Below, piece by piece: positions 15,064-59,538 of a stretch of DNA of 64,000 nucleotides (positions are counted from its first letter, which is position 1; each line of letters opens with the position of its first letter). The notes under the pieces were generated by a model. It had not been told where the DNA came from, did not search any database, and saw only the letters and a program-made list of their open reading frames with translations. A program made the position numbers and the translations under genes. The DNA is from a virus, in IMG/VR virus record IMGVR_UViG_3300022919_000005, positions 1-64,000 of that record; one strand, 5' to 3'.

Positions 15064-15085
15064 GTTATCAATGAAGGAATATCCC

Positions 15086-16126
15086 ATGCAGATCGTCAAC
15101 ATGGACACCATGAAGGGTCTCATTCAGCAGGTCGCGATCAAGAAGCACCGCCCGCTGTTCCTGTGGGGCGCGTCGGGCATCGGCAAGTCCGAGGGCGTCG
15201 CCCAGGCAGCCGCGGAAGCCGACGGCATGCTGGTCGACATCCGGGTCAGCCAGTACGAGAGCATCGACTTCCGCGGCATCCCCGATGTGCAGGCAGGCTC
15301 GACCGTCTGGAATATGCCGGCCACCCTGCCCTTCAAGGGCAACACCCGCTTCGAGATGTTCGATCCGAACAAGCCGATCGTGCTGTTCCTCGACGAGATC
15401 AATCAGGGCGATCCGAGCGTCATGTCGGTCTGCTACCAGCTGACCAATGACGGGCGTATCGGCGAGCACGAGCTGCTCGACAACGTCGCCATCGTCGCCG
15501 CCGGCAACCGGGATCAGGATCGCGGCGCCACCAACCGCTGGCCCGCCCCGCTCGGCAACCGCGGCACGCACGCCGAGCTGGTCGCCGACATCAAGCGCTG
15601 GTCGAAGTGGGCAGGCAAGCCCGAGAGCAAGACGCCCGCCGAGCTGATCGGCTTCCTGAACTTCCGCAGCGAGCTGCTGCACACGTTCGATCCGGCCAAG
15701 CCGGTCAAGGCGTTCGCAACGCCGCGCTCGTGGTCGTTCGTCGCCGAGGATATGTTCGACACTACGATGTCGGAGGATGTGCGGATCGCTTCGATGTCGG
15801 GCTCGGTCGGCGAGGGCCCGGCGGTCGAGCTGACCGGCTTCCTCGACATCATGAAGTCGATCGTGCCGATCGAGGAGATCATCCGCAACCCCGAGGGCGT
15901 CAAGGTCGAGGAACGCATGGACCTGCAGTGGGCGATGGCCACCCACGTCGCCGGACACATGGACAAGACCAACGCCGACCAGCTCCACAAATTCCTGCGC
16001 CGGCAGGAGCCGGAGATGGTCGTGATGGCGTGGACCTTGGCGATCAACCGCGACGAGGACATCACCGACACCAACGCGTTCCTCACCGGCTACGCCACCG
16101 AGTACCGCTCGCTGTTCCAGAACTGA
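15086..16126 (+). CDS. AAA+ ATPase, MoxR/CobS-like
   Basis: 346 residues. I choose ATG 15086 because an in-frame ATG at 15071 overlaps the shared AAGGA ribosome site. Walker A GASGIGKS is at residues 28-35, Walker B LFLDEINQGD has the Asp-Glu pair at 103-104, and a sensor-1-like VAIVAAGNRDQDRG follows. This is the MoxR/CobS branch, which usually works with a von Willebrand A partner as a chaperone or metal-insertion machine. The partner is the next gene, and a DUF3150-like gene follows 3 kb later. In phages the substrate is unknown. Confidence 0.85.
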   Translation: MQIVNMDTMKGLIQQVAIKKHRPLFLWGASGIGKSEGVAQAAAEADGMLVDIRVSQYESIDFRGIPDVQAGSTVWNMPATLPFKGNTRFEMFDPNKPIVLFLDEINQGDPSVMSVCYQLTNDGRIGEHELLDNVAIVAAGNRDQDRGATNRWPAPLGNRGTHAELVADIKRWSKWAGKPESKTPAELIGFLNFRSELLHTFDPAKPVKAFATPRSWSFVAEDMFDTTMSEDVRIASMSGSVGEGPAVELTGFLDIMKSIVPIEEIIRNPEGVKVEERMDLQWAMATHVAGHMDKTNADQLHKFLRRQEPEMVVMAWTLAINRDEDITDTNAFLTGYATEYRSLFQN

Positions 16127-16158
16127 TCGGCGCCGGGGCGGCTCCGGTCGTCCCAAAC

Positions 16159-16175
16159 CGTCAGATCATCTGACG
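16159..16175. repeat. 17-bp palindrome, copy 11
   Basis: CGTCAGATCATCTGACG, then ACTAGCTATAGGACATCGCC and ATG 16196. Confidence 0.9.
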
Positions 16176-16195
16176 ACTAGCTATAGGACATCGCC

Positions 16196-17362
16196 ATGAA
16201 CGCGATCACCACCAAGCACCCGAAATTGAGCAAGGCCAAAGCACGCCTGCTCATGGATCATCCGTTCTTCGCCACGCTGCTGATCCGCAGCGAGATACAG
16301 GTCACCCGCGAGCACAACGGCAGCCCGATCGACACCGCCGCCACCGACGGCGACAACATCTTCTTCAACCCCGACTTCCTCGACCAGCTGACGGTCGACG
16401 ACACGATGTTCGTGCTGTGCCACGAGGTCGGGCATGACAGCCTGCTGCACTCGATCCGGCTCGGCGCGCGCAACCCCGAGGACTGGAACGGTGCGGCCGA
16501 TCACGCGATCAACCTGATGCTGCTCGATCAGGGCATGAAGATGCCGAGCAAGGTGCCAGGGCTCGCCGATCCGAAGTACAAGGGCCTGTCGGCCGACCGC
16601 ATCTACGACCAGCTCCGGCGCGAGAAGAAGCCCGGCGGTGGGAGCGGCAAGCCGGGCAAGCCGGGCAAGGGCGGCTCGCAGCCGGGCAACATGCTCGGCG
16701 GCGACGTGCTGCCGAACAAGGCCTCCACCCCCGAGGAAGCGGCCAAGGTCGAGCAGCGCGCCAAGCAGCGCGTCGCATCGGCTGCCAACATGGCACGCAT
16801 GGCCGGCAAGCTCACCGGCGAGCTGGCCCGCATGGTCGACGACTGCCTCGAGACCAAGGTGCTCTGGACGGACGTGCTGCGCGATTACATGACCAAGGTC
16901 GTGAAGGCGCGCGACAACTGGACGCGTCGCAACCGCCGGTTCGACAAGTTCTACCTGCCCACCCGCTTGAGCAAGCAGATGGGGCCGATCGTGTTCATCC
17001 CCGATACGTCGGGCTCGATGTTCCACGGCGACGACCTCGAGAAAATCTGTTCGGAGATGGCGCATTGCGCCGATCAGACCCAGCCCGAGCACATCCTCGT
17101 CGTGTGGGCTGACGCCGCGGTCAAGGGCGAGCAGCGCTTCGCCCCGCAGGACTTCAGCTACGCGGCGCTCGAGCCCAAGGGTGGCGGCGGCACCGACATG
17201 CGCGTGCCGCTCAAGCACGTCGAGCAGTACGACCCCCAGGTCGTGGTGCTCTGCACCGATGGCTACACGCCGTGGCCGGATGTCGCGCCGCCCTATCCGG
17301 TGATCATCGTCAACACGACGCGCACGAAGTGCCCCGACTGGGCCGAGGTGATCGAGATATGA
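16196..17362 (+). CDS. Metallopeptidase-like plus VWA domain protein (DUF2201/CobT type)
   Basis: 388 residues. The N-terminal domain carries the zinc-protease signature HEVGH at 76-80. A Gly/Lys/Pro-rich linker spans about 145-165. The C-terminal von Willebrand A domain has an intact metal-ion-dependent adhesion site, DTSGSM (Asp 270, Ser 272, Ser 274), and GGGGTDMR later. This domain order matches the DUF2201 putative metallopeptidase/VWA family that pairs with MoxR-type AAA+ ATPases such as the preceding gene. It is the likely adaptor or effector of that ATPase. The stop overlaps the start of the first of seven small paralogues. Confidence 0.85.
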   Translation: MNAITTKHPKLSKAKARLLMDHPFFATLLIRSEIQVTREHNGSPIDTAATDGDNIFFNPDFLDQLTVDDTMFVLCHEVGHDSLLHSIRLGARNPEDWNGAADHAINLMLLDQGMKMPSKVPGLADPKYKGLSADRIYDQLRREKKPGGGSGKPGKPGKGGSQPGNMLGGDVLPNKASTPEEAAKVEQRAKQRVASAANMARMAGKLTGELARMVDDCLETKVLWTDVLRDYMTKVVKARDNWTRRNRRFDKFYLPTRLSKQMGPIVFIPDTSGSMFHGDDLEKICSEMAHCADQTQPEHILVVWADAAVKGEQRFAPQDFSYAALEPKGGGGTDMRVPLKHVEQYDPQVVVLCTDGYTPWPDVAPPYPVIIVNTTRTKCPDWAEVIEI

Positions 17363-17670
17363 GGGCCGATTACGCGCTGTTCCTTGGCGATGGACAGCGC
17401 GTGCCCACCACCATGCTCGAGCAGCCGTGGTACGGCTGGGATTACGTTGAGCCCGGCACTGGCGTGGTCGATCAGGGCTGGCGTCCCCTGTTCATGGCCT
17501 GCCGCATGCGACGCGGGTGGCGTGTGTTCACGATCGACGTCGGTGTGCATTACGGCCGGGTCGGGCAGCTTCGGGTGCATGACTGGTGGAAGCCGGCCGG
17601 CACCGACGAGGTGAAGCGCTTTCCCACCATCGCCGCCGCCGAGATGTATTTGAGGATGACAGCGAAATGA
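17359..17670 (+). CDS. Tandem paralogue 1 (AAxMW-H family)
   Basis: 103 residues, ATG 17359 overlapping the VWA gene's TGA. Aromatic, beta-rich body (WRVFTIDVGVHYG) and C-terminal motif KRFPTIAAAEMYLRMTAK. It is the first of seven consecutive overlapping genes whose products end in a short helix of the form (F/Y)P(T/S)-x3-A-A-x-M-(W/I/Y)-x2-H. This copy lacks the terminal His. Function unknown; position ties it to the AAA+/VWA module. Confidence 0.7.
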   Translation: MRADYALFLGDGQRVPTTMLEQPWYGWDYVEPGTGVVDQGWRPLFMACRMRRGWRVFTIDVGVHYGRVGQLRVHDWWKPAGTDEVKRFPTIAAAEMYLRMTAK

Positions 17671-18026
17671 CCCAGCAGCTGCGTAACATCGAGGTCGGCA
17701 TGCACTACCAGTGCTGCGGCTACATCGTTGAGGGAGGCGGGGTCACCCCTGCCCCCTTCGAGGGTTGGGCGACGTTCACCCAGATCGTGCAGCAGAAGCC
17801 CGACAAGGCCATGCTGGCGATCGGCCGGCGCGTGCCGCTGGTGCAGACCGGCGCGACTACCGTGTCGAGCGCGCCGGCACCCAAGGGGCTGTTCCTCGTC
17901 TGGGACCTGCGGCGGCTGCCCAAGACGACCGCCGACGACCTGCTCAACGCGCCGGCGCCGGTGCTGACCAACCCCACCGAGGACGGCGCGGTGATGCTCG
18001 CGCTGATCAAATATGGACAGCGCTGA
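17667..18026 (+). CDS. Tandem paralogue 2
   Basis: 119 residues from ATG 17667 (ATGA overlap). Two adjacent Cys (YQCCGY) near residue 15. The C-terminal half has GLFLVWDLRRLP, then NPTEDGAVMLALIKYGQR, the divergent version of the shared end motif. Overlaps the next gene by 14 bases. Unknown function. Confidence 0.65.
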   Translation: MTQQLRNIEVGMHYQCCGYIVEGGGVTPAPFEGWATFTQIVQQKPDKAMLAIGRRVPLVQTGATTVSSAPAPKGLFLVWDLRRLPKTTADDLLNAPAPVLTNPTEDGAVMLALIKYGQR

Positions 18027-18315
18027 TCGCCCGCCCGAGTGGGACCTGCAGGAGCAGTGGGCCGCGGAACTGGGCTCGACGTTCGTGCAGGTGTGGTTCT
18101 ACGAGCGCCGCCGGCGGCGCTTCCTGCTCGAGCCCCAGGTCGACGACGACGACACGTTCCTCGAGTGCTGCAGCGAGGCGATGCGCCGGATTGGCGCGAA
18201 CCTCGCGCTGTGGGACGACGGGGAAATGTGGAATGTACTCGATCGCCGCACCGGCGACACCAAACGCTACCCCAGCAAGGAAGCTGCAGAAATGATCGCG
18301 ATCCACCGTGGCTGA
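18013..18315 (+). CDS. Tandem paralogue 3
   Basis: 100 residues, ATG 18013. An Arg cluster (YERRRRRFLLEP) lies mid-chain, then LALWDDGEMWNVLD and the end motif KRYPSKEAAEMIAIHRG. Overlaps both neighbours. Unknown function. Confidence 0.7.
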   Translation: MDSADRPPEWDLQEQWAAELGSTFVQVWFYERRRRRFLLEPQVDDDDTFLECCSEAMRRIGANLALWDDGEMWNVLDRRTGDTKRYPSKEAAEMIAIHRG

Positions 18316-18604
18316 CCCCGTCAGCTGCTCATTCTTCGACACGCTGTTCGGCGCGCAGATCAGTCAGGCCGACATCCTGCCCGCGACCGGGCTGGGTGGT
18401 ATGGCTAACCAGCTGCGCACCGCAGCGCTCAACTTCGCAGCCGAGGGTGGCGCAACGCTGTTCGCCATCCCCGATCTGGTAATCAATAACGGCTCGTGGC
18501 TTGTGTTCGAGGTCGGGACTGGGCGGTTCGCCTATTTCCGCGCCAAGGCACCCAGCCGCGACGCCGCCGAGATGTGGATGATGCACCGTGGTGAAAAGCT
18601 CTGA
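18308..18604 (+). CDS. Tandem paralogue 4
   Basis: 98 residues, GTG 18308, overlapping the previous stop by eight bases. Beta strand WLVFEVGTGRFAYFR is followed by the end motif APSRDAAEMWMMHRGEKL, the clearest form of the family. Unknown function. Confidence 0.7.
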   Translation: MADPVSCSFFDTLFGAQISQADILPATGLGGMANQLRTAALNFAAEGGATLFAIPDLVINNGSWLVFEVGTGRFAYFRAKAPSRDAAEMWMMHRGEKL

Positions 18605-18911
18605 CGCCGACGACAAGATGGTCATCTTCCTGGCCCCCAACCAGCAGCTCGACATCCGCATGATGGACCGCTCGGGCGACGCGATCTGCAACGCCGCGCG
18701 CACGCTCAAGGCCACCCATTTCGTCTGCATCGACGGCTGGTCGATCGCCGAGGACGCACCGATCTGGGGCGTGTTCGAGATGCGCCGTGCCGACCCGAAC
18801 GGCGGTGGGCCCGGCCGCTGGTCGATCCCTGACCCGATCAAGACCTATGTCGGCGCCGCGGCCGACGGCGCGATCATGTACGCGATCCACAAGTCGAGGA
18901 GTGCCGCGTGA
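18588..18911 (+). CDS. Tandem paralogue 5
   Basis: 107 residues from GTG 18588 (GTG 18591 also possible). WGVFEMRRADP in the body, then an end motif AAADGAIMYAIHKS. Overlaps the previous gene by 17 bases, and its TGA overlaps the next ATG. Unknown function. Confidence 0.65.
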   Translation: MVKSSDADDKMVIFLAPNQQLDIRMMDRSGDAICNAARTLKATHFVCIDGWSIAEDAPIWGVFEMRRADPNGGGPGRWSIPDPIKTYVGAAADGAIMYAIHKSRSAA

Positions 18912-19180
18912 TGGCCAGCAAATATATCATCGTCGTCAAGGATGGCGTGATCAAACAGCACTCGATCACCCCGCCCCAGGCACCGCGCAAGCAGCTGGTC
19001 GCGTGGCTCGGCCGATGCGTCGAGGCGGCGCGGCGTGCGGGCGTCGATCGCTATGCGTTCCGGCATGCCGAGCGCTGGTACGTCTACGCCAAGCTCTCCT
19101 CCGGCGTGTGGGCCGCTGCGCGGTCGTTTCCCACCGAGGACGGTGCGGCGATGTGGCTCCTGCACCGGAGCGCGACATGA
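18911..19180 (+). CDS. Tandem paralogue 6
   Basis: 89 residues from ATG 18911 (TGATG overlap; GTG 18908 would add one residue). Basic N-terminal half, then WYVYAKLSSGVWAAAR and end motif SFPTEDGAAMWLLHRS. Unknown function. Confidence 0.7.
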   Translation: MASKYIIVVKDGVIKQHSITPPQAPRKQLVAWLGRCVEAARRAGVDRYAFRHAERWYVYAKLSSGVWAAARSFPTEDGAAMWLLHRSAT

Positions 19181-19503
19181 TGGCGACCTATACGATCACC
19201 GCGATCGGTCCCAACCGGACGTTCGCATGCAAGGTGGCGGGAGCCCCGAACGACAGCCGGATCGCCAACTTCGCAGAGGCGAAGCACTGCCCGCTGGCGA
19301 CGCGCTATTTCCCGAGCAAGAAGGGCTGGGTGCTGTTCGACCTGCGCACTGCGGTCAAGGTGAACATGGGCGTGCGCGGCCGGAACGTCGCCGTCTGGAA
19401 GGGCATCAAGCGCCACCCCAAACTGTTCACTACCGAGGACGCCGCGGTCATGTGGGCGATGCACAAGCTGCAGGCGAACAGTCAGCTGCCGCTTGATGGT
19501 TGA
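19177..19503 (+). CDS. Tandem paralogue 7
   Basis: 108 residues, ATG 19177 (ATGA overlap, GGAG upstream). Body GWVLFDLRTAVKVNMG and end motif LFTTEDAAVMWAMHKL, followed by a short extra tail. Last of the seven-gene run; its stop overlaps the -35 of the 19500 promoter. Unknown function. Confidence 0.7.
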   Translation: MMATYTITAIGPNRTFACKVAGAPNDSRIANFAEAKHCPLATRYFPSKKGWVLFDLRTAVKVNMGVRGRNVAVWKGIKRHPKLFTTEDAAVMWAMHKLQANSQLPLDG

Positions 19504-22950: not shown

Positions 22951-22983
22951 GGAACTTGTGCGCCGAGCTGACGTTGACCAAAT

Positions 22984-23019
22984 CCTCCACGCATGCGACT
23001 AGCTGACAACGCGTGGAGG
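22984..23019 (+). promoter_or_regulatory. Hairpin covering the ribosome site of the PAS protein gene
   Basis: CCTCCACGC (22984-22992) pairs perfectly with GCGTGGAGG (23011-23019). The right arm contains the GGAGG ribosome site for the start at 23028, so the folded leader would hide it. A TTGACC at 22974 has no good -10. It could also be a weak terminator for the upstream genes. Confidence 0.6.
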
Positions 23020-23027
23020 GTTAATTG

Positions 23028-23660
23028 GTGGCAGATAGTAGCATCGCGGTCGCGAGCATTGCGGCTACCGCTGCCGTCGTCGGCGGCGGGCTCTGGACAT
23101 TTTTGAGCAACTGGCTAAACATCGGCCAGTCGTCGCGTAAGGACGCTCTCACCCGCCTAGACGGTGAGGTTTCCAAATTGAGCGAGGAGCTGTCGACTTG
23201 TGAAGCCCGTCATGGAGTTCTTGAAACCCGACTGCGCGCCGTCGAGCAACGCAACGGGTCGTATTTTGCCCTGTGGATCAAGGACCGACATCGCCGTCTT
23301 GTGTGGCTTAATGACAAGGCGTTCCTCACACTTTTCGCCCCTCTCGGCTATGCCCGCGACGAACTCGACGGAAAGACCTTCGCCGACCTACTCGATCCCG
23401 TCGCCGCGGCCGAGATCGAAAACCTAGACCGGGTCGCGCTCGCCCACCCAGGTGCGACGCAGTCGGTGCTGGTGCAGCTCCACCCTGATCTTCAGTTCAT
23501 GGTCGTGATCAAGGTCGCGGCCATTGCCGAAAACGGTGACGTGCAGTACGAGGGCTGCGCGTATAGTCCTGGCGACCCCGACATTCGGGCAGCCAACGGC
23601 GTTCGGCGGCAGGTCGAGCAGCTGCGCCTGTCGGCGGACAACCTGATGCCAGGAGATTGA
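23028..23660 (+). CDS. Membrane-anchored PAS-domain protein ahead of the lysis genes
   Basis: 210 residues from GTG 23028, seven bases after GGAGG (TTG 23025 is possible). One N-terminal transmembrane segment (about residues 6-28), then a coiled coil (about 36-76, SKLSEELSTCEARHGVLETR), then a PAS-like domain (about 78-180) with LVWLNDKAFLTLFAPLGYAR, a typical PAS start. There is no kinase or output domain. PAS folds sense ligands, redox state or partners. It ends two bases before the endolysin start, so it may sense conditions and influence lysis. That role is inference. Confidence 0.7.
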   Translation: MADSSIAVASIAATAAVVGGGLWTFLSNWLNIGQSSRKDALTRLDGEVSKLSEELSTCEARHGVLETRLRAVEQRNGSYFALWIKDRHRRLVWLNDKAFLTLFAPLGYARDELDGKTFADLLDPVAAAEIENLDRVALAHPGATQSVLVQLHPDLQFMVVIKVAAIAENGDVQYEGCAYSPGDPDIRAANGVRRQVEQLRLSADNLMPGD

Positions 23661-23661
23661 C

Positions 23662-24405
23662 ATGCCGGAACGCCAGCAGATCGCGGACGCCCTAGCAGCC
23701 AAGGCTCGGGAGGTCGCGTTCGGCGGCAAGCTCCTCGAGCCCGACGTGGTGCTGATCGACAAGCTGGCCGACTCGCTGTTCTCCCGCTTCCCTGCCGCCG
23801 CCGCTGCGCCGCTGCCTGATGTGGGCACCGCAACGCCCAACCCGCTGCTCACCGTGCGCGCCGCCCACGAGCTGGTGCATCACGAGGCGATCGTGCGCGA
23901 GATGTATTACGACAGCGCCAAGCCGCCGGTGGCCACCTGGGCGATCGGCATCACCGCCGCGTCGGGCCACAAGGTGCTGCAGTACAAGGACAACCCGCAG
24001 TCGATCGAGATGTGCCTGCGCATCTACATCTGGCTGCTCCGCCGGGTCTACATCCCCGAGGTGATGCGCGCGACCGCCGGCATGCACCTCACCGAGCAGC
24101 AGTTCGCCGCGCTCGTGTCGTTCCACTACAACACCGGCGCGATCCTCAAGACTGACCTGATCAAGCTGCTGCGCGCTGGCAATCCACAGGCCGCGCGCAA
24201 GTTCTGGACTAGCCACTATCTCAACGGCGGCGACCTGCAGAGCCGGCGCGACAAGGAAGCCCGGCTGTTCTTCGACGGCGTGTGGGACGGCGACGGGCGC
24301 ACCGCCACCGTGCTCGGCGTCAAGAAGCCCAGCTACACGCCTGACTGGGGATCGGCGAAGAAGGTTGACATTGCGGCCGATCTGGTGCGGGCGCTCGCGG
24401 CATGA
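23662..24405 (+). CDS. Endolysin, GH24-type muramidase
   Basis: 247 residues, ATG 23662 after AGGAGA. The catalytic pattern E-x8-D of GH24 lysozymes is present (Glu 75, Asp 84) with TWAIGI after it, and LTEQQFAALVSFHYNTGA matches the conserved core. The first 65 residues are an extra helical, Ala/Pro-rich extension not found in short GH24 enzymes. No signal peptide, so export depends on the holin encoded next. Together with holin and spanins this is a complete Gram-negative lysis cassette. Confidence 0.85.
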   Translation: MPERQQIADALAAKAREVAFGGKLLEPDVVLIDKLADSLFSRFPAAAAAPLPDVGTATPNPLLTVRAAHELVHHEAIVREMYYDSAKPPVATWAIGITAASGHKVLQYKDNPQSIEMCLRIYIWLLRRVYIPEVMRATAGMHLTEQQFAALVSFHYNTGAILKTDLIKLLRAGNPQAARKFWTSHYLNGGDLQSRRDKEARLFFDGVWDGDGRTATVLGVKKPSYTPDWGSAKKVDIAADLVRALAA

Positions 24406-24836
24406 ACGTGCTCGAGTACCTCGACCGGATCGGCGAGCGCCGCCTCGAGCGCATGCGGATCGCGCCGCCCCGGCCGCGCGACACCCGCATGCTGCTCGGC
24501 GCGCTGTTCTTCATCGGCTATTACAGCTTGGTGATCATGATCATGAAGGGTCGGGAGCTGGCGCCCGACAACGCCACGCTGGTCAAGGACGCCATGCTGG
24601 TGCTCGGCCCCGTCGTGGGCATGATCGCCCAGGCGCTGTTCCGCACCGATGTGCGCGACGAGATCGCCACCAACAATACCGGCGCGGCGTTCCGCGCGCT
24701 GGGGGATCAGGCCAAGGCCACTGTCGCCGCGGCTGCCACCACCCCACCCGACGCGTCCGTTGCGGCTGCCGCCGCGGAAGTCGCCGATGCCGCAACCATG
24801 CGCGCCGATCAGATCAGGGACGAGGTCCAGCCATGA
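24402..24836 (+). CDS. Putative holin
   Basis: 144 residues, ATG 24402 overlapping the endolysin TGA. Two hydrophobic segments (about residues 31-48 and 64-80) flank a short loop, preceded by a basic N-terminus and followed by a long Ala-rich polar tail. Position between endolysin and spanins supports holin function (timed inner-membrane hole). The tail is longer than in most holins. Confidence 0.7.
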   Translation: MNVLEYLDRIGERRLERMRIAPPRPRDTRMLLGALFFIGYYSLVIMIMKGRELAPDNATLVKDAMLVLGPVVGMIAQALFRTDVRDEIATNNTGAAFRALGDQAKATVAAAATTPPDASVAAAAAEVADAATMRADQIRDEVQP

Positions 24837-25216
24837 AGCTTCCCACCACCATCGCTCGCGAGACCGTGCTCAAGGTGATCTTCTGGATCGCGGTCGGCGG
24901 GCTCGTGTTCGCCCTCGTGCTCATTGCCCAGTGCTCGATGAACGCCGACGTCAAGACCCAGGCGGACGTCAACAAGGGGCAGGCCGGCGCGGCGCAGCAG
25001 ACCGGCAAGGATGCGGTCGAGCAGCTCGGCACTACGATGTCGAACGAAATGGTCGCCGACACCACCACGAAGGAAAACGATGATGAAATCCGCAAGGCTG
25101 CTGGCTCTGACACTGCTGTCGCTCCCGATGCTCGCGCTGCCGGCCTGCGGGCTCTTTGTCGGCGCGCGTCCTTCGCTGCAAACAATCCCGCCTGCGTGCA
25201 GCAAGTACGTCCCTGA
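24833..25216 (+). CDS. Inner-membrane spanin (Rz-like)
   Basis: 127 residues, ATG 24833 overlapping the holin TGA. One N-terminal transmembrane segment (about 13-32), a periplasmic helical region, and a Cys-containing end AAGLRALCRRASF typical of Rz proteins. Works with the outer-membrane spanin whose gene starts inside its 3' end (25080), to fuse the envelope membranes at the last step of lysis. Confidence 0.8.
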   Translation: MKLPTTIARETVLKVIFWIAVGGLVFALVLIAQCSMNADVKTQADVNKGQAGAAQQTGKDAVEQLGTTMSNEMVADTTTKENDDEIRKAAGSDTAVAPDARAAGLRALCRRASFAANNPACVQQVRP

Positions 25217-25427
25217 CAGCTGGCGGAAGGGCATCGCGTCGGCGAAGCTCGCCAACGGTGGGCTCGAGATGGGCGACTGGATCGCGTTCAGCGACGCGCA
25301 GACCGGGCAGCTCGACAAGTCCAACGGCCGGCTCTCCGACGCTCTGTCGATCATCGAGAAATGCGAGACGCGCGATGCGGCGGCGGTGGCCAAGGCGACA
25401 CGGAAGAAAGTGTTGGGTATCTTCTGA
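25080..25427 (+). CDS. Outer-membrane spanin lipoprotein (Rz1-like)
   Basis: 115 residues, ATG 25080 (ATG 25083 also possible) after AAGGA. A lipoprotein signal ends in the lipobox LPAC at about residue 20-23. The gene begins inside the Rz-like gene in another frame and extends past it, a common spanin arrangement (overlap about 137 bases). Longer than lambda Rz1. Partner: the 24833 product. Confidence 0.8.
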   Translation: MMKSARLLALTLLSLPMLALPACGLFVGARPSLQTIPPACSKYVPDSWRKGIASAKLANGGLEMGDWIAFSDAQTGQLDKSNGRLSDALSIIEKCETRDAAAVAKATRKKVLGIF

Positions 25428-25430
25428 TCG

Positions 25431-25458
25431 TTGACTTTGGCCAACTATCCTCTAGGTT
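25431..25458 (+). promoter_or_regulatory. Promoter with embedded TTGGCCAA operator, copy 4
   Basis: TTGACT (25431-25436), 16-bp spacer, TAGGTT (25453-25458); TTGGCCAA immediately after the -35. Drives the gene at 25487. Confidence 0.7.
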
Positions 25459-25486
25459 GGGGGCTCAACGCTAGGAGCCCCCACCG

Positions 25487-25788: not shown

Positions 25789-25815
25789 ACGTTAGGCGTT
25801 GGTTAGGAGATAGTG

Positions 25816-28607: not shown

Positions 28608-29111
28608 ATGCCGGCTTATTTTGAACACAAGCAGACGGGCAAGCGGTACACGATCGTGTCCACCGACGCCGACAAGGGCACGATGCGCCTCAAGGGCGAG
28701 CACGCCGAGTTCGACGAACCCAACAGCGACGAGCACTTCACCAACATGGGCTATGTGAAGCGCGAGGGCGATCCCGCCACCGACGCGCCGCTGGCTGGTG
28801 GTGCCGCTCCCAAGGCTCCCCCGCCCCCGCCCGCACCCGGAGCACCTGCTGATGCTGCACCTCCTCCCCCTCCTGCGCCGGCTGCTGGCACGCCGCCGCC
28901 GCCGCCTCCTCCTGCGGGAAGCACGCCGGGCGCTCCGCCACCGCCACCGGCACCCCCAGCTCCTCCGGCAGCTCCTGTGGCAGCACCGCCTCCGCCGCCG
29001 CCCGCACCAGCCGCTCCCGCTGCTGTTCCTCCCCCTCCACCGGCAGGCGCAGTACCGCCACCGCCCCCAGCTCCGACCACGCCGCCGCCTCCCCCTCCGC
29101 CGGCGGCGTGA
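28608..29111 (+). CDS. Protein with long Pro/Ala low-complexity tail
   Basis: 167 residues, ATG 28608 with AGGAG upstream. The first 60 residues are an ordinary acidic domain (YFEHKQTGKRYTIVSTDADK). The remaining 100 are almost only Pro, Ala and Gly with runs of five to seven Pro. Such tails are rigid, extended linkers; here the tail ends the protein. The 35752 gene has similar Pro-Ala linkers. Function unknown; a binding module tethered by a stiff tail is a guess. Confidence 0.7.
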   Translation: MPAYFEHKQTGKRYTIVSTDADKGTMRLKGEHAEFDEPNSDEHFTNMGYVKREGDPATDAPLAGGAAPKAPPPPPAPGAPADAAPPPPPAPAAGTPPPPPPPAGSTPGAPPPPPAPPAPPAAPVAAPPPPPPAPAAPAAVPPPPPAGAVPPPPPAPTTPPPPPPPAA

Positions 29112-52539: not shown

Positions 52540-55500
52540 TCAGTATCCGAAGTTGGCATAGCCCGTAAGGGCGCGGCCGGCAATGTCCTTCGCCTTGACC
52601 CCCAGCGGCGTGCTCGTTGCGCGCGCCGTCGCGGTCGTCGTCGCCTGCCGCTTCAGCGCGCCCGGCACGCTCGGCAGCACGGCGAAGGCCGGGTTGTCCT
52701 GATCGAACTTCTGCGCGTCCGCCACCAGCTCGCGGGCGCGCTCGGTGTCGCCGGTGCGCAGCGCCTTGACGATCCCCGACCGCAGGACGTTCGCCTCGCG
52801 CGTGATGACCACCCGGCGGCTCGCCTGATCGCCGCGCGCCTCGCTGTATTCCGCCTTCTCGGACGGGTTGAAGCCAAGCAGCTGCCACAGGATCGAGCTG
52901 GCCTTGGGCGTGATCGGCAGCTTGGTGCCCTTGGTGTCGACATAGCCCTGGGTCGTCATGCGGTACGCCTCGGTGGGACCCTTGAACGCGACCGGCAGGA
53001 ACGCCTTCATGCCCCCCACGACATCGCCGCGGCCGAACGCTTCCCCGCCATCGGCGAGGTTGAGCAGCATGTCCGGCGATGCGCCGGCGCTGCGCCCGAG
53101 CGTGGCCTGCACCGCTTCGCGCCACGAGCGCTTGTCGCCCAGCAGCTGCGAAAAGGGCAGCAGATCGGCCTCGCCCACGCGGCTCGAGATGTCGAAGCCG
53201 GCGGCGCGCGGCAGCCCGCGAGCGACCACCTCGGCGACATCCTTGCCCAGGACGTCCGCCAGGAAGCCGCGCCAGCTGGCCGTCGCGTCATAGGGATCGT
53301 CGTCGTTGTCGGCCGTGTCGACCAGCTTACCGATCGCCGTCGCGAACACCGACGCGAAGGGCAGCCCCAGCGTGCCGGCGAGCCCGGTGATCGCGGTCAG
53401 GTGCCCGAGCAGATAGGTGCGGCTCTCCTGCCGGCGCTGCGTCGCGCTCTCGGTGCTCTCCCCGGCGCGCGGCGCGGCGATCGCGTTGCCGACCTCGGAA
53501 AACAGCTTCTCGGTCATCTGCGCCGAATAGGTCATGAACTGGGTCAGCAGCGGCGTCACCGGGCCGGCGAAGCCCTGCTTGCCCATCTGGCGCGCGGTAT
53601 TCCAGCTCTGATAGTCGAACATCGAGTTGGACACGACATTCTGGGCGTATTTGGCGCTCTCCTGCACGTTTTCCCCACCGTGCAGATCGGCAGCCGCCAG
53701 CGACGTGATCAGGCGGCTGGCGGTCTCCGTGTACATGCCGATCGCCGACGCGTACTTCAGCGCGACGTCGGTGCCCTTGCGCAGCTTGCCGCCGCCGCCG
53801 TTGTTGCGCGCGACCGCCTCGAGCGCGAACGCCGACGCGCCGATGTCGAGCGAGCCGGTGGCGATCATGTGGCGCAGGAACCCGGTCTCGCGCGGCGACA
53901 GCCCTGCCTTGGTCAGCACGTTTTCGGTCAGCGTGATGTCGGCGGCGTGCTTCCACCCCTGCGCGCGGGCCTCCGATGCGGCTGCCTTCAGGATCGCAAA
54001 CGCCTTGGGCGTCGCCCGGCGGACGGCATGGAACGACTTGGCATAGCCGTTCTTCTTCGCCAGCTCGGGGATGCCGTTGGTGCCGACCTGCATCAGCTGG
54101 ATCATGCCGTAGGCGGGCGAGAAGCCCAGGAAATAGGCGTGGCCGAACGCGCGCAGCCGGTCGAACCCGGTGGCGTTTTCGTTGAGCGGGTTGCGCGCCT
54201 CGCGCTTCTTGATCTCGGTCAGCAGGTCAGCCGCCAGATAGGCGTCCTGATCGTTGCCGGCGACGCGCGCCTCGGCGACCTGGGCCCGCATCTCCATGTG
54301 TGAGTTGGTCAGCTTGGCAGCCTGCGACATGCCGGCGATCGCGTTCGAGCCCACGTTCCAGCGGTGGGCGAAGTTGCGCGTCATGTCGGGGTCGAAGCCG
54401 GGGATCGTGTAACGCGCTGTCAGGACCTTGCTCACCGAGCTGTCCGGCATGCTGGCGATCCACGTATCGCGCGCGATCTGCACCGCGGTGTCGCGCTGTG
54501 CGGCGAGCGCCGACTTCTCGGCCTGGGTCATCTCGGGCTCGGGCACATAGCGCGGATCGTTTTCGATCGCCTGGATGTAGCTGCGCACATAGCTCGGCAT
54601 GCTGTCGCCGGTGCCGAAGTTGTCCGCGCGCTCACGCGGCCCGGCCTCGATCTTGCTGTCGGCGTCGAGCCAGCCCTGCTGCTTGAGCCCGAGCATGAGC
54701 TGCTCGAAGGCGCGGGTCTGCTGCACCGTCTCGAAGCGGATCGAGAGCTTCGGCCGGCGGTTGTCCGCCGAAATCTCGGCGTTGCGGAAGCCGGCAGCCT
54801 CGAGCGCCTCGGCGACGTGCCGCTGCGCGACCGGGTCTACTGTGCCATCGTCGAGCTTGCGGATCGTCGCCGCCCCGTAATTGTCGCCGAAGCGGCCGAG
54901 ATGGAAATACGGCGCGCGCGCCATGCCCTTCAGCGACTCATAGGTCGCCGCGATCTTCGCCTCGATCGGCGCGATGTGCTGCAGGAGCCCGCGCTGCTCG
55001 CTCGGCGTGCCCACCTCGGCCTCGCCCTTCTTCTGGTTGACGAACGCGGTGATCGCCTTGAGCTGGTCCTGCACTGCGCCCTGCCAGTAAGCGTGCGTCT
55101 CCTCGGCGGTCGACAGGTTCGGCAGCGTCATGAACACGTCGGCCGGGTTGACGCTGGCGCCCTCGACGCCGAGCGCGAACTCGCGATCGACCGCAACAAT
55201 GTGGTGCAGCTCGGTCGCCATGCGGGCGTAATTGAGCGTCTCGTTGCGCCGGCGGAACTCGTTGAACATCTTGATCCCCGCGCCGTCGCCGCGCGAGAGA
55301 TCGTTCTTCATCTTGACCAGCTCGCCGTGCAGCCGCTTCAGCGCCGGCAGGTTCGGATCATCCTTCAGGTGCTCGTGATCGTCGAACGCCTTGTCGGGGT
55401 CGAGCTGGAACTGGGTGGTCGACAGCATGAGCTGGTTGACCATGTTCGCCGCCTTCGGGTTCGCGCGCTCGAGCTGCTCGAAGTTCTGCACCGCCTGGGC

Positions 55501-58500
55501 GCCCATCGTGGCCATGCGCCCGCGCACAGCGTCCTGCTGGCGCTGGGCGTTCGAGTTGTCGACCATCGCCGGCAGGATGTTGCCGAACGCGCGATCGAGG
55601 TCGTTGCGGCTGCGCCAGCCGAGCAGCACGCGGCGCACGCCCACGGCCTTGTCGGCGAGGTTGATCCCCGTCGCCGCGCGCTCCGCCAGATCGGCAGCCG
55701 CGATCGTGGCGGTGTTGGCGTCCATGACCGAGCGCGCGCCGGAGCCCGACGCCGCGGGGGCCTCGAGCGTGGCGGTCGCGTCGGCGTCGGGATCGTTGCG
55801 GGCATAGGCCGGGGCCAGCTCGCGCGCATCGAGCGCCAGGACCTGCTCGGACACGCGCAGCAGCTCGGTGAGCGCGGTGTCCTGCTTCGGGTCGAGCCCC
55901 AGCAGATTGCGCATCACCTCGACGAAACGGCTGAACACCGACTGCTTCGGCTTGTACGCGATCGTCTGCAGGTAGCGCTGCATCTCGGGGTTCGTCAGCC
56001 CCCACGCCAGCACCTCGTCGACATTGGCGAGCGAGTTGGTCTGGCGCTCGTAATACTGCTGCTCGAACGCCGACAGGTTGCCGGCCGCGGCGCGCGCGTT
56101 GAAGTGCTGCACGATCGCGTTGCGCAGATCGGTCATGTCCTTGCGTGCCTGACCGAGCTTGGTGTCCGCGCTCCGCACGAACTGCCCCTCATTCATGACG
56201 CGCATGGTCACCGCGTGGAGCATCTCGTGCGCCACCAGCTGGTAGTTGACGCCCTGGCTCTCACCCATCGCCGTGCCCTTGACGTAGACCGTCGTCGTGT
56301 TCGGGTCATAGCGGAACACCGTCAGCGCCTTCACGCCGGGGTTGTTGAGCCGGATCGGCACGGAGTCGCCCGGCCGCACGACCTTGAACTCGAAGCGGTG
56401 CCCGTTCGCCTCGATCTGCTTCGCCAGCGCCATGACGCGGGTCATGACCTCGCGGGTCGCCGGGCTGGGTGCGTTGGCCGCGACGAAATCGCCGGCCTCG
56501 GCGAAGCTCTTGCCGTCGAGCCCGGCCTCGAGCGCGGGATCGGCATGGCCGAACACGCCGAGCGCCTGGGCCTCGGTGACCTCCTGCGACTGCTTGCCCC
56601 GCCAGAAATCCTTGCGGTACTGCGCAGCGCGGCGGTCATCCATGCCGCGCCCGGCCGCGAAGCCGTCGCGCGTCGTCGGCAGGTCCATCTTGAGCAGGCG
56701 CTCGAGCACGCTGGTGTCGTAAGCGGCGTGGGCGATCCCGCCGAACTTCGACATGAGCAGCGCCACGCGGCTGACCTCGCCGGCGTCGAGCATCTCGTGG
56801 AACTTGGCTGCGCGCGCCGCCGTGATCCCACCGTCCTCGAGCGTCTGATCGATCAGGTTGCGCAGCTCGTATGCGCGCACGGCCTCGGCGTTCCGGCGGC
56901 GGCTCTCCGTCTTGGTCGGCCCGCGCTCGGGGGTGTTCATCTCGCGGAAGATCGGCTGCCCGCGCACCGGCAGGGGCGAGAGCACGCGCTCGGGGCTCGG
57001 GGTCTGGCGGAACAGCGTCTTGCCGCCCTGCGCGTCCGCGAGCGCCTGCCCGACCTCCGCCGCCGGCGCACCGTCGCGGATCATGCGGCGGAGCATCGAG
57101 ACGTCGGTGTCCTTGACGTTCGACAGGTCGACCGTGTCGAGCAGGGAGTTGAGCCCCTGCTGCTGAATTTGCCCTGGCGACAGCTCGGTGCGCGCGACCG
57201 ATGCGCGGTCCACAGCCACGCCGGTGCGGCGCGCGTCGATCCGTGCCTGCGCTGCCTGCGCGCCGGCGCCGTTAGCGGTCGTCTCATTCTCGACGACGTT
57301 GCGCGCCCACGCCTTGCCGGCGGCATGCGCGGCGAGGTCCTCGAAGCTGGTGTATGTCGCGGCGGGTCCGCCGATCTGCTCGTTGACGCCCGCCTGGAAC
57401 GCAGCGGTCCCGGCAGCGGCATAGCCCTGCTCGACAGCGGCCTGCTGCACATCGGCCGCGCCCTCGGGGGTGCGCAGGAACGTCGCGCGGCCGAGCGGCG
57501 TGATGTCCATCGCGTCGTTGTCGGTGACCAGCCCCATCGTGCGCGCGAGCTTTTCGTTCTGCGACACAGCCGCGTTCGAGGTGTCGGTCGCGATCGCGCG
57601 GAACACCGTCGCCTGGGCCTGTTGCAGGTTGGCGGGCGTGAACGCCAGCGCGGCGCCGGAGCGGTTGCGCGTGATCCCCGCGGCCTTCTTCAGCTCCTCC
57701 CACTGCTGGGCGAACGCCGGATCGTTGGCTGCCGGCGCGGTCTCCACGACGTCGGGTGCGACCGCTTCTGTCGTGCTCGTGGCGACCGGGACCGGCGCGG
57801 GCGCGACCGGCGCGGAGGGCGCCGCGGCCTCCGCCTGAAGCGCGGTGAGGCGCTCCTGCTCGATCGTGTTGGACTTCGCCGTCGGCTCGAGCGCGTCGTC
57901 GAGCAGGCCCAGCCGCTGTGCCAGCTTGGTGACATTCGAGGCGGTGTTCTGGTTCACGAACACCTCGTCGTAGACCTTGGTCACCAGCTCCTGCGGGCTC
58001 GTCGCGGTGAGCTTCTGGGTGAAGCTGCCGCGGATGCCGTCCTTCAGCTCGGTCAGGCGCTGCTGGAAATCGCCGGTCGGCGCGATGTCGCCGGCGGCTT
58101 CCTGATAGCGCGTGGCGATCTCCTCGTCGGCAGCCGCCTTGACCTCGGGCGACGCGTCCTTGGCCTTCGAGGCTGCCTGCAGCTCGGCGAGGGGATCGTC
58201 GTTGAACAGGCGCAGCGCGGGCGCCGCGACCGGGGTCGCCAGATCGCCGCCGGGGACCATGCCCTGCTGCGCCGCGGCGATCGCCGTCGGGCTCGCGCCA
58301 GTGAGGTCCAGACGCGGCTGTGCGCCGGCGAAGGGCACGCCGGCGGGCACGGCGCCCCGGAGCGCGGCCTCGGCCTCGGGGCTGACCTGGGTGCCGATCG
58401 CGGGCAGGTCCACCGGCGACAGGTTGTCGGTGAAGCGCTGACCCAGCTCGAGCTGCGTCTCCGGCGGGACCGTGGACAGCGCGGGGTCGAGCCCCAGCTG

Positions 58501-59538
58501 CGGGAGCGCCGACGCCGGGGTCTCCACGACGGGCTGGTCTTGGAACGGCAGCGCGGGCTGCTGCTCGGTGGCGGTGCCGCCGGTGAGATCGAGGCTCGGC
58601 TGGAAGCCCTCCTGATCCTGCGGGGTAAGCTGCAGCTCGTTGCCACGCGCTGCGGACCCGGCGAGCGCGGCGTCGACATGCGCCATGATGTCGTCGGTCG
58701 TGACGTCGGCCGCGGGCTTGACGTTGACCGCCGTGCGCCGGAAGCCGCCGCCTGCGCCGAGCACGCCGCCGACCGCGAAGGCGGTGACCGCTGCGTTGAC
58801 ATATTCGCCGGCGGCATCGGCGCTCGAGACGTCGAGCCCGGCGGCATAGCGCTCGCCGACCTGCTGCCCTGCTTCCGTCACGGCCTCGACCCCGCCGGCC
58901 TTCAGGACCGACTTGGCGGTGCGCGCGAGGAAGCCGCCGGTCTGCTTGGCGGCGAGCCCGCCGATCAGGCCCCCGATGCCGGGCAGGTAGCGATCCACGA
59001 GGATGTCCGACGCTGCCTGGGGGACGGCGACGGCCAGCGCGCGCTCGGCGGCGTCCTGCGACAGCGAGCCCGTTTCCTGCACCGCGCGATCGACGTTGGC
59101 AGCCGAGAATTGGGGCACGCCGCCCGCGATCGCACCCGCGACAGCACCGGGAGCACCGCCGACGAGGGCACCGCCCACGCCGCCGACAACCCCGCCGACC
59201 ATGTACGGCAGCGAGGCAGCGAGGTTTTCACCGACGAAACGGCTGATACCGACCCGACCGGAGGTCAGATCGTCGACATTGGCGGGCGCGGCCTGGGCGG
59301 CTGCCGCGGCGCTGCTGCGCAAGCCCTGCTGGTAGAACGCCTCGTCTGGCGCGGTGAGCGTGCCGGTGAGCTTCTGTGCCTGATACGGCAGGCCGTAGCG
59401 CACCTGCCCGATCGCGCCCTGCGCGGCGGCGCCGAGCACGGCACCGAGACCGGGGCGTTCCGGCGCGGCCGGGGCAGCACTGCGCGCGAGCGCGGCGACG
59501 ACATCGTCACCGACTTCGACGTTACCGATCTTGGGCAT
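52540..59538 (-). CDS. Giant internal virion protein with metallopeptidase motif
   Basis: 2332 residues, ATG 59538 (TAATG coupling). The longest gene in the window. The N-terminal part has Gly/Ala-rich hydrophobic stretches (GGVVGGVGGALVGG), a long Pro/Ala middle, a zinc-protease signature HEMLH at 1104-1108, a long helical part, and a C-terminal region with FLGFSPAYGMIQLMQVG that resembles large polyvalent phage proteins (LPD38-like). Such proteins are carried in the capsid and injected with the DNA. No RNA polymerase motifs, so not an N4-type virion polymerase. Function inferred from size, order and motif. Confidence 0.75.
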   Translation of the reverse strand: MPKIGNVEVGDDVVAALARSAAPAAPERPGLGAVLGAAAQGAIGQVRYGLPYQAQKLTGTLTAPDEAFYQQGLRSSAAAAAQAAPANVDDLTSGRVGISRFVGENLAASLPYMVGGVVGGVGGALVGGAPGAVAGAIAGGVPQFSAANVDRAVQETGSLSQDAAERALAVAVPQAASDILVDRYLPGIGGLIGGLAAKQTGGFLARTAKSVLKAGGVEAVTEAGQQVGERYAAGLDVSSADAAGEYVNAAVTAFAVGGVLGAGGGFRRTAVNVKPAADVTTDDIMAHVDAALAGSAARGNELQLTPQDQEGFQPSLDLTGGTATEQQPALPFQDQPVVETPASALPQLGLDPALSTVPPETQLELGQRFTDNLSPVDLPAIGTQVSPEAEAALRGAVPAGVPFAGAQPRLDLTGASPTAIAAAQQGMVPGGDLATPVAAPALRLFNDDPLAELQAASKAKDASPEVKAAADEEIATRYQEAAGDIAPTGDFQQRLTELKDGIRGSFTQKLTATSPQELVTKVYDEVFVNQNTASNVTKLAQRLGLLDDALEPTAKSNTIEQERLTALQAEAAAPSAPVAPAPVPVATSTTEAVAPDVVETAPAANDPAFAQQWEELKKAAGITRNRSGAALAFTPANLQQAQATVFRAIATDTSNAAVSQNEKLARTMGLVTDNDAMDITPLGRATFLRTPEGAADVQQAAVEQGYAAAGTAAFQAGVNEQIGGPAATYTSFEDLAAHAAGKAWARNVVENETTANGAGAQAAQARIDARRTGVAVDRASVARTELSPGQIQQQGLNSLLDTVDLSNVKDTDVSMLRRMIRDGAPAAEVGQALADAQGGKTLFRQTPSPERVLSPLPVRGQPIFREMNTPERGPTKTESRRRNAEAVRAYELRNLIDQTLEDGGITAARAAKFHEMLDAGEVSRVALLMSKFGGIAHAAYDTSVLERLLKMDLPTTRDGFAAGRGMDDRRAAQYRKDFWRGKQSQEVTEAQALGVFGHADPALEAGLDGKSFAEAGDFVAANAPSPATREVMTRVMALAKQIEANGHRFEFKVVRPGDSVPIRLNNPGVKALTVFRYDPNTTTVYVKGTAMGESQGVNYQLVAHEMLHAVTMRVMNEGQFVRSADTKLGQARKDMTDLRNAIVQHFNARAAAGNLSAFEQQYYERQTNSLANVDEVLAWGLTNPEMQRYLQTIAYKPKQSVFSRFVEVMRNLLGLDPKQDTALTELLRVSEQVLALDARELAPAYARNDPDADATATLEAPAASGSGARSVMDANTATIAAADLAERAATGINLADKAVGVRRVLLGWRSRNDLDRAFGNILPAMVDNSNAQRQQDAVRGRMATMGAQAVQNFEQLERANPKAANMVNQLMLSTTQFQLDPDKAFDDHEHLKDDPNLPALKRLHGELVKMKNDLSRGDGAGIKMFNEFRRRNETLNYARMATELHHIVAVDREFALGVEGASVNPADVFMTLPNLSTAEETHAYWQGAVQDQLKAITAFVNQKKGEAEVGTPSEQRGLLQHIAPIEAKIAATYESLKGMARAPYFHLGRFGDNYGAATIRKLDDGTVDPVAQRHVAEALEAAGFRNAEISADNRRPKLSIRFETVQQTRAFEQLMLGLKQQGWLDADSKIEAGPRERADNFGTGDSMPSYVRSYIQAIENDPRYVPEPEMTQAEKSALAAQRDTAVQIARDTWIASMPDSSVSKVLTARYTIPGFDPDMTRNFAHRWNVGSNAIAGMSQAAKLTNSHMEMRAQVAEARVAGNDQDAYLAADLLTEIKKREARNPLNENATGFDRLRAFGHAYFLGFSPAYGMIQLMQVGTNGIPELAKKNGYAKSFHAVRRATPKAFAILKAAASEARAQGWKHAADITLTENVLTKAGLSPRETGFLRHMIATGSLDIGASAFALEAVARNNGGGGKLRKGTDVALKYASAIGMYTETASRLITSLAAADLHGGENVQESAKYAQNVVSNSMFDYQSWNTARQMGKQGFAGPVTPLLTQFMTYSAQMTEKLFSEVGNAIAAPRAGESTESATQRRQESRTYLLGHLTAITGLAGTLGLPFASVFATAIGKLVDTADNDDDPYDATASWRGFLADVLGKDVAEVVARGLPRAAGFDISSRVGEADLLPFSQLLGDKRSWREAVQATLGRSAGASPDMLLNLADGGEAFGRGDVVGGMKAFLPVAFKGPTEAYRMTTQGYVDTKGTKLPITPKASSILWQLLGFNPSEKAEYSEARGDQASRRVVITREANVLRSGIVKALRTGDTERARELVADAQKFDQDNPAFAVLPSVPGALKRQATTTATARATSTPLGVKAKDIAGRALTGYANFGY

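Follow-up and report, generated by a model that had tools for sequence, protein, structure and literature searches.

A predicted membrane-tethered PAS protein encoded beside the endolysin in otherwise unrelated phages

The window, by which we mean the whole 64,000-base stretch of DNA analysed here (taken from a 64,754-base virus record), carries directly before its endolysin gene a gene for a small protein that combines a predicted membrane helix, a coil, and a PAS domain, and comparable genes adjoin non-homologous endolysins in other phages. The fold of the protein, its architecture and conserved residues, the purifying selection on its gene, its neighbourhood with non-homologous endolysins, and an insertion that it shares with its phage relatives are all established by computation. 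The protein is most likely a membrane-tethered, probably cytoplasmic, lysis-timing module. A preliminary description of this DNA had drawn attention to a PAS domain encoded next to the endolysin; that observation is confirmed, and is stronger than its author knew. If the proposal is true, phages would have in such PAS proteins, encoded beside no fewer than four endolysin families, a general device coupling lysis to host state. To our knowledge, very few systems with signal-responsive lysis timing exist, T4 lysis inhibition through RI and T being one. The idea of a transmembrane (TM)-coil-PAS lysis protein is directly testable because isolated carriers exist (phi14:2 on Cellulophaga baltica).

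The PAS gene and the lysis cassette of the window

The PAS gene, the parts of its product, and the region of its translation start are the following.

23025/23028-23660, plus strand: gene for the TM-coil-PAS protein, 210 aa; GTG start at 23028, with TTG at 23025 possible; stop codon TGA at 23658-23660
23037-23117, plus strand: helix at the N-terminus predicted to span the membrane, residues 4-30; much Gly and Ala, containing VVGGGLWTFL, with K/R in its C flank and none in its N flank
23136-23252, plus strand: predicted coiled-coil helix, residues 37-75; helix at low pLDDT, heptad-like sequence
23265-23567, plus strand: PAS domain, residues 80-180, from Pfam, AlphaFold, Foldseek, and the family alignment
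23577-23642, plus strand: helix predicted at the C-terminus, residues 184-205; an output domain is absent
22981-23022, plus strand: inverted repeat or RNA hairpin over the Shine-Dalgarno (SD) sequence of the PAS gene; arms 22981-22992 and 23011-23022, 92% complementary

The PAS assignment is supported by three lines of evidence. The window protein matches Pfam PAS_4 (PF08448) over residues 80-172 with 24.8 bits (E=2.6e-5), above the curated cut-off of 23.1 bits, and a 70% identical relative from the viral contig L001 scores 28.9 bits. AlphaFold2, run with an alignment of 11 sequences, predicts strands at residues 81-85 and 90-94, helices at 96-106, 118-121, and 124-139, and strands at 145-150, 157-166, and 172-179; this is the b-b-a-a-a-b-b-b order, with a five-stranded sheet and flanking helices, that both AlphaFold and Foldseek recover in the window protein. 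Block pLDDT values over residues 81-180 are mostly 73-90, with one block at 65, and the overall pTM is 0.50; a run with two sequences also gave the PAS order, the 11-sequence run being the better. Foldseek against the PDB returned 172 matches at E<=1e-3, and essentially all of the matches listed are PAS domains, including 3fc7 (TM-score 0.80 of the target, rmsd 2.4). The structure prediction proposed as a check in the preliminary description thus recovers a PAS fold, with the agreement of Foldseek.

The remaining parts of the architecture described earlier hold to different degrees. Residues 8-26 form the only hydrophobic segment, weak in hydrophobicity and with much Gly and Ala, in keeping with the single transmembrane helix claimed, so that the membrane tether stands as a prediction. 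The helix at residues 37-75 does resemble a coiled coil, as had been proposed, but is predicted at low confidence. The absence of an output domain is borne out, as only the predicted helix 184-205 follows the PAS domain in the 210-aa protein; Pfam finds no helix-turn-helix DNA-binding domain in the approximately 30 residues that are left there.

The gene was earlier placed two bases before the endolysin; with the endolysin ATG at 23662, the actual gap is a single base (23661). It is preceded by an SD sequence, GGAGG, at 23015-23019, with 8 bases between its end and the GTG. Compared with the L001 copy over 208 codons, there are 55/37/128 differences at codon positions 1/2/3, a third-position excess showing that the reading frame is under purifying selection and excluding an open reading frame that arose by chance. 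RNA folding of 61 nt around the SD gives -24.3 kcal/mol (z -3.75), and the SD accessibility of 0.05 is the second lowest among about 51 starts in the window. A hairpin covers the SD region of L001 too; its sequence is unrelated and its folding energy not below that of its shuffles (z -1.2). Because this counterpart is not significant, we go no further than naming the window hairpin a candidate gate of translation, or operator, for the PAS gene. Scans at the PAS gene for sigma-70 promoters and for intrinsic terminators gave nothing above chance. A second SD-occluding hairpin is present in the window, upstream of the ORF at 25813.

The genes 3' of the PAS gene look like a complete lysis cassette, in which the holin and spanin calls are made from anatomy and position. 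PAS-less genes at the equivalent place in three other contigs are included below.

23662-24405, plus strand: endolysin, GH24 Phage_lysozyme, 247 aa; Pfam PF00959 E=1.4e-9, phrog_7 endolysin E=1.5e-15
24402-24836, plus strand: holin-like protein, 144 aa; two apparent TM segments, position; no family match
24833-25216, plus strand: Rz-like i-spanin candidate, 127 aa; N-terminal TM, position; weak match to phrog_739 Rz-like, E=0.06
25083-25427, plus strand: Rz1-like o-spanin candidate; has an LPAC lipobox and is read in a different frame from Rz, which it overlaps; no family match
L003 4714-5043, L004 3785-4114, L006 4678-4992: TM-coil proteins without PAS, before endolysins, 104-109 aa

Relatives of the 144-aa holin-like protein adjoin related endolysins in L003-L005. 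The TM-coil proteins of L003, L004, and L006, which match no Pfam family above cut-off, precede relatives of the window endolysin, and their presence at this place raises the prospect that PAS is optional; the comparison suggests a PAS domain added onto a common type of TM-coil lysis accessory. We also note a perfect 9-bp GC hairpin at 25458-25483, just 3' of the Rz1-like gene.

Relatives of the PAS protein and their gene neighbourhoods

In L001, the gene for the 70% identical protein overlaps the start of an endolysin gene, and it is the sole gene of the L001 stretch detectably shared with the window. The two endolysins are just 25% identical, the putative holins are unrelated, and the terminase of L001 is that of a different phage group; with no second shared gene, what these otherwise unrelated phages have in common is the PAS gene and its position. 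A phage genome collection searched with the window protein, its PAS part, and its N-terminal part gave no significant matches. With the L001 protein as query, only a weak match pointing to phi14:2 (E=4) came up, which later proved informative. PHROGs searches with the PAS protein gave sub-threshold matches only, and in the GTDB genome pattern searches one (A1) found nothing and another (A3) two short PAS matches and nothing else. When the PAS sequence alone served as query, about 14 additional phage proteins were recovered, 189-218 aa long and composed of TM, coil, and PAS; they are mostly of Bacteroidota type and include Cellulophaga phage phi14:2.

The same gene order, which the preliminary description proposed to look for in other phages, is found in L001, phi14:2, L030/L040, and L041. 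The phi14:2 PAS gene overlaps the start of a GH19 endolysin gene, those of L030/L040 lie directly before an M15 peptidase gene, and that of L041 directly before a GH108 gene; the junction is abutting or overlapping in the window, L001, phi14:2, L030, L041, and L038. In Chryseobacterium phages MA9V-1/2 the PAS gene is directly 3' of GH108 and PG-binding genes, in L037 and L038 it precedes DUF5675, and in L042 it precedes a spanin-like lipoprotein with a C-terminal TM. No recognised lysis gene adjoins it in the L033/34/35 clade, L047, L050, or L051; a DUF5675 gene is present a few genes downstream in the last of these. Counting near-identical loci once and excluding L020 and L053, which are at contig ends, 13 independent loci have visible flanks, and the neighbour is a recognised endolysin (GH24, GH19, GH108, M15 peptidase) in 6/13, DUF5675 in 2/13, spanin-like in 1/13, and none of these in 4/13. 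The probability of at least 6/13 abutting an endolysin is about 2e-5, given an assumed rate of 5% per random gene and with the proviso that loci may have inherited their position by shared ancestry. The four loci without an adjoining lysis gene indicate that lysis need not be the sole context of the PAS gene. DUF5675 itself occurs near PAS and spanin-like genes (L037 829-1257, L038 6572-6988, L051 8584-9012), and could be a lysin or lysis protein not yet recognised as such.

Two further candidates, phi18:3 gp090 and phi19:1 gp108, were considered as relatives from Foldseek and from their closeness to endolysins; neither matches PAS_4, and for this reason both are omitted from all counts. In BFVD they resemble the modelled PAS protein in fold, and they lie near endolysins (L016 39102-39620; L018 6203-6925); they are possible distant PAS-like lysis proteins.

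Several observations bear on whether these proteins share a phage ancestry. W83, K85, D86, N95, G115, D134, and G176 are invariant in the 16 members, and position 162 has K in 15 members and R in the remaining one. The spacing from N95 to G115 is 21 residues in 15/16 phage proteins (window, L001, and 13 others) and 17 in MA9V-2, whereas in 35 bacterial PAS hits obtained with the same kind of profile it is 17-18, with one at 20, one truncated, and none at 21. The longer spacing corresponds to a 4-residue insertion with a Pro (around P105 in the window protein), and its distribution (15/16 phage, 0/35 bacterial) suggests that the TM-coil-PAS proteins are one phage-specific lineage. When profiles of the window/L001 pair and of the Bacteroidota-type group are compared, they align from the coil into the PAS domain with a probability of 95%. 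We considered whether the window/L001 pair could be an independent recruitment of a host PAS domain, as the pair sits on a long branch of the family and a bacterial kinase PAS outscores the window protein on the family HMM (53 bits against 19); however, the phage-type insertion is present in this pair too and makes such a recruitment less likely. Among 398 proteobacterial genomes sampled, all of one phylum, there is no stand-alone homologue, and the only two matches, both weak, are parts of open frames 929 and 1003 residues long.

Candidate ligand and comparison with known systems

The hallmarks of LOV and haem PAS domains are missing from the window protein: there is no LOV adduct cysteine in E-alpha, its only Cys residues being C58 and C177, and no haem-binding His in F-alpha, as helix 124-139 contains none. 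Across the 16-member family no Cys or His is conserved. The best-matching solved-structure sequences for the family profile are those of VqmA (6UGL, 6KJU, 6IDE; E about 3.5e-4), and the VqmA of phage VP882 (7DWM) matches it at E=0.15 in one search, with K, D, N, D, K, and G invariant in the alignment. The VqmA PAS domain binds the autoinducer DPO (PMC8694187, PMC8284805), which is reported to be coordinated by two side chains of VqmA, one apparently a lysine (PMC8694187). The KD...N...D...K...G pattern is common to VqmA, VP882 VqmA, and the window family; it is also widespread among bacterial PAS domains of the same type, and so does not demonstrate that DPO is the ligand. The coordinating lysine of VqmA is presumably K101, the one aligned with the near-invariant lysine of the family, and this correspondence in the alignment is suggestive only, a hint at a ligand. 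That the window PAS protein is a sensor, of redox or of a ligand as the preliminary description suggested, is a hypothesis.

VqmA differs from the window protein in being a transcription factor with a DNA-binding domain and no TM, where the window protein has a TM and no DNA-binding domain. As a phage PAS sensor affecting the lytic decision, VqmA acts on transcription, and a PAS domain of this type feeds into that decision (PMC8284805, PMC12802170). The LuxR-family gene of VP882, gp56, lies outside the lysis cassette, and the window PAS gene inside one.

The closest precedent in arrangement is g078 of phi14:2, a crAss-like phage of a marine flavobacterium. This 'PAS fold protein' (YP_008242302; 209 aa) has, like the window protein, a TM, a coil, a PAS domain, and the phage-type insertion, and its gene is directly before an endolysin gene, with overlapping stop and start; it is about 19% identical to the window protein and its endolysin is GH19, not GH24. 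It is annotated, and is discussed in no paper that we found. Our searches of an open-access library turned up no paper describing such a protein among phage lysis genes. The earlier remark that no PAS sensor fixed in a lysis cassette was known is half right, given this outcome on the one hand and the annotated phi14:2 gene before its endolysin on the other.

Other lysis proteins are similar in part. XhlA/hemolysin-like and other TM-coil accessories are likewise small membrane-anchored coils beside the endolysin, but in XhlA the TM is C-terminal, and the window protein has an N-terminal TM and an extra PAS domain; Pfam XhlA gives no match to it at E<=10. The T4 holin T and antiholin RI offer a functional analogy as a signal-responsive lysis timer, and no sequence similarity of the window protein to either was found. 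In T4 the T and RI domains are periplasmic.

Proposed role and alternatives

We propose that the window gene product is a phage-specific TM-coil-PAS protein that forms an inner-membrane dimer with a cytoplasmic PAS domain, is co-translated with the endolysin, and sets the holin step, a proposal to which we give an even chance of being right. The Gly-rich N-terminal helix would anchor the protein in the inner membrane, and the coil and PAS domain would drive dimerisation with PAS exposed to the cytoplasm; the adjoining endolysin gene is probably co-translated. PAS would then respond to a small molecule or partner protein and signal its state along the coil to the helix in the membrane; this helix could pack against the holin or against itself, so that the PAS protein would set when or whether the holin step fires. 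In a broader form, put forward tentatively, phages of distant hosts would share membrane PAS sensors in their lysis cassettes, through which a host metabolite or signal gates the holin post-translationally, bypassing transcription; by analogy with VqmA, the ligand is possibly a small polar ring compound.

Alternatively, PAS could be a ligand-free scaffold, a dimerisation or partner head on an antiholin- or holin-helper-like TM-coil accessory that senses nothing. PAS domains often dimerise, the LOV and haem hallmarks are absent, and the PAS-less proteins of L003, L004, and L006 suggest that the essential working part may be the membrane helix with its coil. Nonetheless, the invariant polar residues of W-x-K-D type and the VqmA-aligned lysine exceed the apparent need of a pure scaffold, and we regard this explanation as somewhat unlikely.

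A role apart from lysis seems improbable, in which the protein is a decoy (moron) directed against host PAS sensor kinases or cyclases and its gene a passenger in the late operon. The PAS domain does resemble that of bacterial kinases, which reach 74.5 bits against the phage profile, the GC3 of the gene (0.71, with 0.90 in neighbouring genes) is compatible with later acquisition, and some phages carry the PAS gene apart from lysis genes; however, the phage-specific insertion and long divergence indicate an old phage lineage, and repeated adjacency to different endolysin families would not be expected of a freely moving moron.

The cytoplasmic placement of PAS in the lysis-timing proposal is probably correct, as judged from the charges flanking the TM, with 0-1 K/R on the N side and 2-5 on the C side in 16/16 members. 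The positive-inside rule can fail, and since lambda Rz violates it, being C-out despite positive charges after its TM, charge-based topology is weak for such proteins. The opposite topology (N-in/C-out), with a periplasmic globular domain as in the T4-type class III holin T or a spanin-like protein, would suit the resemblance to T in size and layout (about 210-218 aa, one N-terminal TM), the precedent of Rz, and two Proteus phage holins found by Foldseek at E=0.02, but the PAS matches are far better, the W-x-K-D type of PAS resembles that of bacterial sensor proteins, the window already has holin-like and Rz/Rz1-like genes, and with the uniform flank charges we consider it improbable.

Elsewhere in the window, an AAA_5 (MoxR-like) ATPase gene and then a gene for a DUF2201 putative metallopeptidase/VWA protein form a MoxR-VWA-type pair at 15071-17362. 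These are followed at 17586-19503 by six consecutive small ORFs with a similar end motif (for example AAEMWMMHRGEK, GAIMYAIHKS, GAAMWLLHRS, AAVMWAMHKL), which from this motif look like a tandem paralogue family. A highly proline/alanine-rich protein with long PPPPPAP runs is encoded at 28608-29111, directly 3' of the DNA polymerase gene, and the largest ORF of the window, of 2332 aa, occupies 52540-59538 on the minus strand.
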